From contig VFZE01000008.1 of NCBI GenBank assembly GCA_016871315.1, positions 62,001-126,000 of the forward strand: a stretch of DNA of 64,000 nucleotides, written 5' to 3'. Positions 37,805 through 38,917 of this stretch are shown here, in pieces. The stretch comes from Acidimicrobiia bacterium (lineage in GTDB: Bacteria > Acidobacteriota > Terriglobia > Bryobacterales > Bryobacteraceae). The notes below the pieces were generated by a model. It saw only the letters and a list, made by a program, of their open reading frames with translations, made no database searches and was not told the origin of the DNA. Every line of letters begins with the position of its first letter. The first letter of the stretch is position 1. The translations under genes and the position numbers were made by a program.

Positions 37805-37828
37805 TCTAGAATTGTGTAAGGAAACTCC

Positions 37829-38917
37829 GTGAAGTTAACAGTCATTGCTTCCGCCGCCGGCCTGCTCGCTGCCACACTCATGGCCCAAACCGACAACCGC
37901 CCGCGCCTCCGCCCCGTTCCTCAAGCCGGACAGAACATGAAAACCGGCCCCGAAGTCGGCGCCAGAATCCCTTCCTTCTCGCTCCCCGATCAGGACGGCA
38001 AGTCGCAAAGCCTGGAATCTCTCCGTGGACCCAATGGCCTCATGCTCGCCTTCGTCCGCTCCGCGGATTGGTGACCCTACTGCAAGGGCCAGCTCGTCGA
38101 GCTGGCGGAAAAGAAAAACCAGCTGGCCGCCCAAGGTCTCGGCCTCGCCGTCATCACCTATGACAGCCCCGAGATCCTCAAGCACTTCGCCCAGCGCATG
38201 AACATCAACCTCCCGCTGCTGTCGGACCGAGATTCCGCCGTTATCCGCGCCTTCGGCATCCTCAACGACAACGTTCCCGCCGGCACGCCTTTCCATGGTG
38301 TTCCTTTCCCCGGCACCTACATCGTCAATCCCGATGGCGTCGTCCAATCAAAATTCTTCGAGGATGACTACCGCGAGCGCTTCACCGCCGGAGCCATTCT
38401 CGAGCGTGTCTACAACGTCGCAGGCACCACCCGCACCGAAATCGAAACCAAACACTTGAAGCTCGCCAACTGGGCCAGCAACCAGACCGTCTTCGGTGGC
38501 AGCCGCGTCCGCCTCACCCTGGAAATCGACCTGCCCAAAGGCATGCACGTCTATGCCCCCGGCGTGCAATCTTCCTACATCCCCATTGATTGGAAGATCC
38601 CGGAATCGAAAGCCTGGCTCGCCTTCGACGCCATCTACCCCAAACCCAGAACCCTGCACCTGCCCGCCATCAAGGAATCGGCTCCGGTCTTTGAAGGCAA
38701 GTTCCGCCTCGAACGCGATCTCACCATCGCCCAAGCCAACGAACTCACCTCCTTGCTCACATCCGGGAACAACCTCACGGTCGAAGCCGCCTTCCGCTAC
38801 CAGGCCTGCGACGACAAACTCTGCTACACGCCCCAAACCGTCCCTCTGAAGTGGACCTTCACCGTCCAGCAATCCGACCGCCAACGCGTCCCCACTGAAC
38901 TCCGCAAGGTCAACTAG
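37829..38917 (+). CDS. Probable selenoprotein: secreted redoxin (Sec82) fused to DsbD-alpha-like domain
   Basis: One 362-residue protein read through a TGA at 38072-38074. A GTG start has AAGGA 7 bases upstream. Residues 1-20 are a signal peptide. Residues about 40-180 form an AhpC/TSA-type redoxin (GARIPSFSLPDQDGK, then FPGTYIVNPDGVVQ). The TGA falls exactly at the active site, giving RSADW-U-PYC, with Sec82 and Cys85 where thioredoxin-fold enzymes have CxxC. The frame stays open and homologous afterwards (KGQLVELAEKK). A SECIS-like hairpin follows at 38088-38106. Residues about 205-350 resemble the DsbD N-terminal alpha domain, with QACDDKLCYTP (Cys327, Cys332). The likely role is thiol or peroxide reduction outside the cytoplasm. 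A nonsense mutation is the alternative. Confidence 0.85.
38088..38106 (+). promoter_or_regulatory. Bacterial SECIS-like hairpin
   Basis: GCCAGCTC (38088-38095) pairs perfectly with GAGCTGGC (38099-38106) around the loop GTC. If the top C-G pair opens the loop is CGTCG. The first loop base is G followed by T, as bacterial SelB-binding hairpins usually show, and the loop begins 22 bases after the last base of the TGA, inside the distance expected for bacterial SECIS elements. Confidence 0.7.

Follow-up and report, generated by a model that had tools for sequence, protein, structure and literature searches.

A putative selenoprotein of the Bryobacterales combining a UxxC Prx-like domain with a DsbD-alpha-like domain

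On the forward strand of the window (i.e., the whole stretch of 64,000 nucleotides analyzed here) standard-code ORF calling yields two open reading frames that share one frame: one with a GTG start at 37829..38074 (81 aa) and one with an ATG start at 38198..38917 (239 aa). When the TGA that ends the first of these is read through, positions 37829-38917 form a single open frame of 362 residues in which this is the only TGA, at residue 82 (context ...FVRSADW-U-PYCKGQLVEL...). The earlier note on this DNA had proposed that the two frames, which would be annotated separately, are one gene, that the TGA at 38072-38074 falls within the motif W-TGA-P-Y-C, and that redoxin sequence continues for 41 codons before the next ATG; our analysis confirms each of these points. 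The alignment with homologues from across the order continues past the TGA, and we annotate the whole gene at 37829..38917 (+ strand; 362 codons plus stop, GTG start), with the TGA at 38072..38074 (+ strand) as the putative selenocysteine codon, U82 of U-P-Y-C, based on the frame and on the TGA/Cys column of the homologues. A possible Shine-Dalgarno motif, AAGGA, can be read 6 nt upstream of the GTG start (37818..37822, + strand). Residues 1-20 (MKLTVIASAAGLLAATLMAQ; 37829..37888, + strand) resemble a signal peptide by inspection, in a part of the protein where model confidence is low, and export of the protein is likely. An open continuation by itself is weak evidence for readthrough, because 60 or more codons before the TGA and 200 or more after it are also found for 11 of the 739 ORFs of the window that end with TGA; two other frames that continue past a TGA in the window were inspected and bear no sign of a selenoprotein. 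It is homology, covariation and co-occurrence that carry the case for a selenocysteine (Sec) gene far beyond chance.

The N-terminal half of the predicted protein is an AhpC-TSA/redoxin domain (residues 43-174; 37955..38350, + strand), which matches PF00578 with an E-value of 4e-29 and 101.4 bits (Pfam cut-off 26) and contains U-P-Y-C as its UxxC motif. With this pfam00578 domain and UxxC motif it would belong to the Prx-like thiol:disulfide oxidoreductase selenoproteins, a family that is listed, with UxxC or UxxU, in the accessible text of PMC1794560, PMC9312934, and PMC13188914. The whole-protein AlphaFold2 model has a mean pLDDT of 92 and a pTM of 0.87, and the best PDB fold matches of the N-terminal domain comprise BcpB (Z 18.9), AhpE (Z 18.1), PrxQ, and ResA. 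Among the matches listed for the whole protein only peroxiredoxins occur, because the first domain fills the list. The second domain, DsbD_N (DsbD-alpha-like; residues 223-337; 38495..38839, + strand), matches PF11412 with an E-value of 2e-8 and 34.5 bits (cut-off 25). Modelled alone (pLDDT 91), it matches the N-terminal domain of ScsB (Z 13.0, 2.5 A over 126 residues) and DsbD-alpha (Z 11.7, 2.2 A over 106), where unrelated folds reach a Z of about 9, and its fold matches include the complexes 1jzd (DsbC-DsbD-alpha) and 1z5y; a PDB sequence search with this domain alone gave no match. It carries a Cys pair, C327-DDKL-C332 (38807..38824, + strand), in invariant alignment columns. Both domains are present in 38 of the 39 homologues. 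The earlier note had left the DsbD-alpha-like one unrecognized. DsbD_TM is absent from the protein, which is thus not a full-length DsbD. Of the NCBIfam models, that for the SelL-related redox protein (NF040769) scored 45.0 bits against a cut-off of 120 and WAxxUGC_long (NF041054) 36.5 bits against a cut-off of 300; the first family member reached the cut-off of none of the NCBIfam models, the best match being PrxQ. DsbD_N-like domains that are related to the C-terminal half described here also occur without a matching Sec redoxin half, at L134 (G105), at L135 (G073), and at C47:19724-20062 of G000, the assembly to which the window belongs.

In the PDB sequence alignments U82 lies opposite the first Cys of the ResA CxxC motif and opposite the Ser of the PrxQ SxxC motif, and C85 (38081..38083, + strand), the partner Cys of the UxxC motif and invariant in the 39 homologues, lies opposite the peroxidatic Cys of peroxiredoxins (PrxQ). 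Consequently, U82 would be the attacking residue of a thioredoxin-type UxxC motif. The earlier note had referred to Sec at the peroxidatic or attacking position of a thioredoxin-fold protein as established chemistry; here the attacking position, that of the first Cys of a ResA-type CxxC, is upheld, and a peroxidatic Sec was rejected, since the alignment puts C85 at that place. In Sec peroxiredoxins, Sec occupies the peroxidatic place (TxxU), according to the accessible text of PMC13188914. A true peroxidase, i.e., a peroxiredoxin that is recycled by the DsbD-alpha-like domain after reduction of a peroxide, would agree with the peroxiredoxins at the top of the PDB fold matches and with PrxQ as the best NCBIfam match. 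The peroxiredoxin signature PxxxTxxC/U is, however, absent: residues 78-85 read SADWUPYC, without the first Pro and with U in place of Thr/Ser. Furthermore, every family score lies far under its cut-off, and the alignment with ResA makes U82 the first Cys of a CxxC motif. We therefore consider a peroxidase possible but rather unlikely, with the proviso that Sec at position 82 could also reduce peroxides and that the two functions are not exclusive. From its sequence, the protein is most likely an exported thiol:disulfide oxidoreductase that contains an electron-relay domain of its own.

The closest homologues, which share 41-67% identity and come from the same genus, family or order, have TGA at codon 82 with both flanks conserved. 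Homologues with Cys at this position occur in other Acidobacteriota, and the redoxin domain alone is found, with Cys, in Proteobacteria and Opitutales. None of the aligned homologues terminates at column 82, which holds either Sec (TGA) or Cys, the alternatives that the earlier note had proposed to look for. In the alignment of 39 members U/C82, P83, and C85 are invariant. The tree requires four changes between Sec and Cys, at least two of which are forced by well-supported branches. A read error at 38072, which the earlier note had named as a possible refutation, does not apply, since the TGA is common to dozens of independent assemblies.

Immediately downstream lies the hairpin GCCAGCTC-GTC-GAGCTGGC (38088-38106), which starts 14 nt 3' of the TGA. 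It was described before as a perfect 8-base hairpin with the loop GTC; this is exact for the present gene, with eight perfect pairs, but the outermost and innermost pairs vary in the homologues, and the eight-pair stem was rejected as the conserved element. As only six of the eight pairs are conserved, the conserved element has a stem of 6 bp and a loop of 5 nt, and GU is always present in the loop. We annotate a SECIS-like hairpin at 38088..38106 (+ strand; stem 38088-38095/38099-38106, loop 38096-38098, conserved core 38089-38094/38100-38105), based on folding, on covariation and on its absence in Cys homologues. The folding energy (-17 kcal/mol over 39 nt, z -2.07) is weak as stand-alone evidence, as z ranges from -2.07 to -1.36 depending on the stretch that is folded. 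Over the 26 gap-free Sec rows on average 5.85 of the six core pairs form, compared to 4.1 in the 26 Cys rows. Four stem pairs are constant in the Sec rows, columns 18/34 switch between C-G and G-C, and columns 21/31 are GC in 13, AT in 11, and other combinations in 2 rows. The changes in columns 21/31 are synonymous because base 3 of a Gln codon pairs with base 1 of a Leu codon. None of 500 shuffles of the Sec rows equals the observed covariation or pairing, and their consensus fold is the conserved stem. For the Cys rows pairing drops to 54%, all shuffles equal or nearly equal the observed values, and consensus folding of the 26 rows predicts no stem. The motif QLVxL is encoded in 26/26 Sec rows vs. 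4/26 Cys rows, which suggests that the hairpin RNA constrains the protein sequence. The rows are related by descent, the peptide QLVEL alone favors a palindrome, and the Cys copies that share this peptide, only four in number, pair nearly as well. In a codon-shuffle control, Sec copies form 6.4 of 8 pairs where 4.9 are expected, and Cys copies 4.5 where 4.1 are expected.

These data bear on the possibility that the TGA is a real stop, in either a degraded gene or a pair of proteins of which the upstream one is a short truncated redoxin. The two ORFs obtained by standard calling and the long open continuations past TGA, which are not rare in the window, would agree with this. However, 61 genomes have TGA at this codon between flanking sequences that are conserved on both sides at 40-68% identity, the invariant residues C85, P83, and K86 lie 3' of it, the peptide that precedes the next ATG is redoxin sequence, and the covariation of the hairpin is confined to the copies with TGA. 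A real stop is, therefore, highly improbable.

The earlier note had suggested a search for selA, selB, selC, and selD in the same genome, and all four are indeed present in G000, an assembly of 6.25 Mb that is 98% complete. Its selC encodes a tRNA-Sec (69.5 bits, above the Rfam cut-off) with the anticodon TCA (UCA), and the matches to selA, selB, and selD score 485, 382, and 353 bits, respectively. The selD gene (L053, contig C12) itself contains an in-frame TGA in HAKAAG-TGA-ASK, the usual Sec site of SelD, so that the SelD of this genome is likely a selenoprotein as well. A peroxiredoxin gene with an in-frame TGA (AFTGG-U-TKEM) is found at C5:140500-144500 (L061) and likely encodes a Sec peroxiredoxin of the TxxU kind.

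We surveyed 150 genomes of the order (Bryobacterales), 69 of which possess the gene family. The TGA copy occurs in 61 genomes, and 59 of these 61 also have selA. The two exceptions both possess a tRNA-Sec (G129 and G153) and one of them also selB (G129); they are, therefore, probably Sec users with incomplete assemblies. In one genus, the codon is TGC (Cys) in three genomes (G042, G071, and G119), which lack selA, selB, and tRNA-Sec, and a fourth genome of this genus (G154) has the TGA copy together with selA, selB, and tRNA-Sec. Three further genomes (G093, G019, and G149) carry Cys despite the presence of selA, which indicates that replacement of Sec by Cys does not require the pathway to be lost. 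Fisher's exact test for selA in 59/61 vs. 3/6 genomes gives p = 0.004, a value to be read with the relatedness of the genomes in mind, since sequences that share ancestry do not provide independent counts. Decoding of the TGA as another residue (Trp, or suppressor readthrough) is suggested by W81 directly before it and by TGA-to-Trp readthrough in other lineages, but seems scarcely credible given the Cys in all non-TGA homologues checked, the tRNA-Sec with UCA anticodon alongside a whole Sec pathway in the genome, and the Cys in the three relatives that lack this pathway.

The Sec machinery, the homologues with TGA or Cys, and the TGA in dozens of assemblies thus support the selenoprotein that was proposed earlier, and the gene almost certainly encodes a protein with Sec at residue 82. 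What the sequence shows is the structure of the gene, the presence of the Sec machinery, a conserved codon and hairpin, and the two domains; from these we infer Sec insertion, export, electron flow, and substrate as follows. SelB bound to the hairpin just 3' of the UGA would bring Sec-tRNA-Sec, and selenocysteine would be inserted at residue 82. The mature protein would then consist of a Prx/TlpA-like thioredoxin-fold domain with U-P-Y-C and a DsbD-alpha-like domain of immunoglobulin fold, which has a separate Cys pair. U82 would attack the oxidized substrate and C85 would resolve the resulting bond, after which C327/C332 would return reducing electrons to the Sec centre, probably from the membrane protein DsbD. 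The DsbD-alpha of known systems is an electron donor to exported proteins that resemble thioredoxin. One complete DsbD, with DsbD_N and DsbD_TM in a single frame, is encoded on contig C52 of the genome. Among 25 loci no conserved neighbor that might point to a partner was found beyond the gene itself. The chances seem evenly balanced that the protein is a self-contained exported selenium relay, in which the DsbD-alpha-like domain, fed by DsbD, reduces the U-P-Y-C selenenylsulfide of the same chain, and that this design is common to the Bryobacterales and switches between Sec and Cys along with the machinery.

Several known proteins resemble parts of this one. Like the Prx-like selenoproteins, including the "Prx-like 1" of an ocean survey (PMC2398784), it has a domain of the AhpC/TSA type whose UxxC motif begins with Sec, but it differs from them by the DsbD-alpha-like domain at the C-terminus of the chain and by the absence of an NCBIfam model that reaches its cut-off. 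With ResA/TlpA oxidoreductases it has in common the thioredoxin fold, the likely export, and the first position of CxxC, with which U82 is aligned, although it has Sec for Cys and the extra DsbD-alpha-like domain. The fold of the N-terminal domain is that of peroxiredoxin Q/AhpE, including Sec peroxiredoxins (TxxU), but PxxxTxxC is lacking and Sec takes the place of the Thr/Ser in TxxC, three residues N-terminal to the peroxidatic position. The C-terminal domain has the fold and the Cys pair of DsbD alpha and the ScsB N-terminal domain; in contrast to these, it has no membrane domain attached, its Cys spacing is CX4C, and it is fused behind a Sec redoxin. A fused redox domain bearing Cys is also found in TsoB (NF045694, a rhodanese/DsbD fusion-like selenoprotein) and in the Prx-like 3 fusion, which by their descriptions are set apart by a different Sec domain and by an unidentified fused CxxC domain, respectively. 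Prx-like selenoproteins fused to domains that bear Cys have been reported before (PMC2398784). The accessible text of the 2026 family list mentions DsbD only for TsoB and contains no combination of a redoxin with DsbD-alpha. A search of openly accessible literature on Solibacter, Bryobacter, and DsbD with selenoproteins yielded no account of the protein, and an earlier description in supplementary files or subscription papers is possible. As far as the accessible text of these sources goes, UxxC Prx-like selenoproteins are known and the fusion with a DsbD-alpha-like domain would be the new part.

An early survey reported four selenoproteins in three families for the Acidobacteriota (PMC1794560), to which a two-domain selenoprotein would now be added. 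Standard ORF calling splits such selenoprotein genes in two. Through the DsbD-alpha-like domain in the same chain, the source of electrons for an exported selenoenzyme can be tested directly, and, since close relatives have either Sec with the full pathway or Cys without it, matched pairs allow a test of the advantage that Sec gives in a single redox protein.

Besides the gene in the window, G000 contains a paralogue that is 57% identical (L056, contig C27, - strand), with a TGA at locus position 2670 and the hairpin. Strongly diverged second Sec members with 30% identity occur in two genomes (L059 in G028 and L060 in G029) and share the two-domain layout and the shape of the hairpin. Two relatives in the order (L035 and L036) carry a different, single-domain family, FYRGYW-U-P[YF]C, with a TGA at the equivalent place. 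A contig titled as a Bifidobacterium breve MAG (L083) carries a Cys homologue of the Acidobacteriota type that falls within the Acidobacteriota in the tree, and its title is probably a binning or labelling error.
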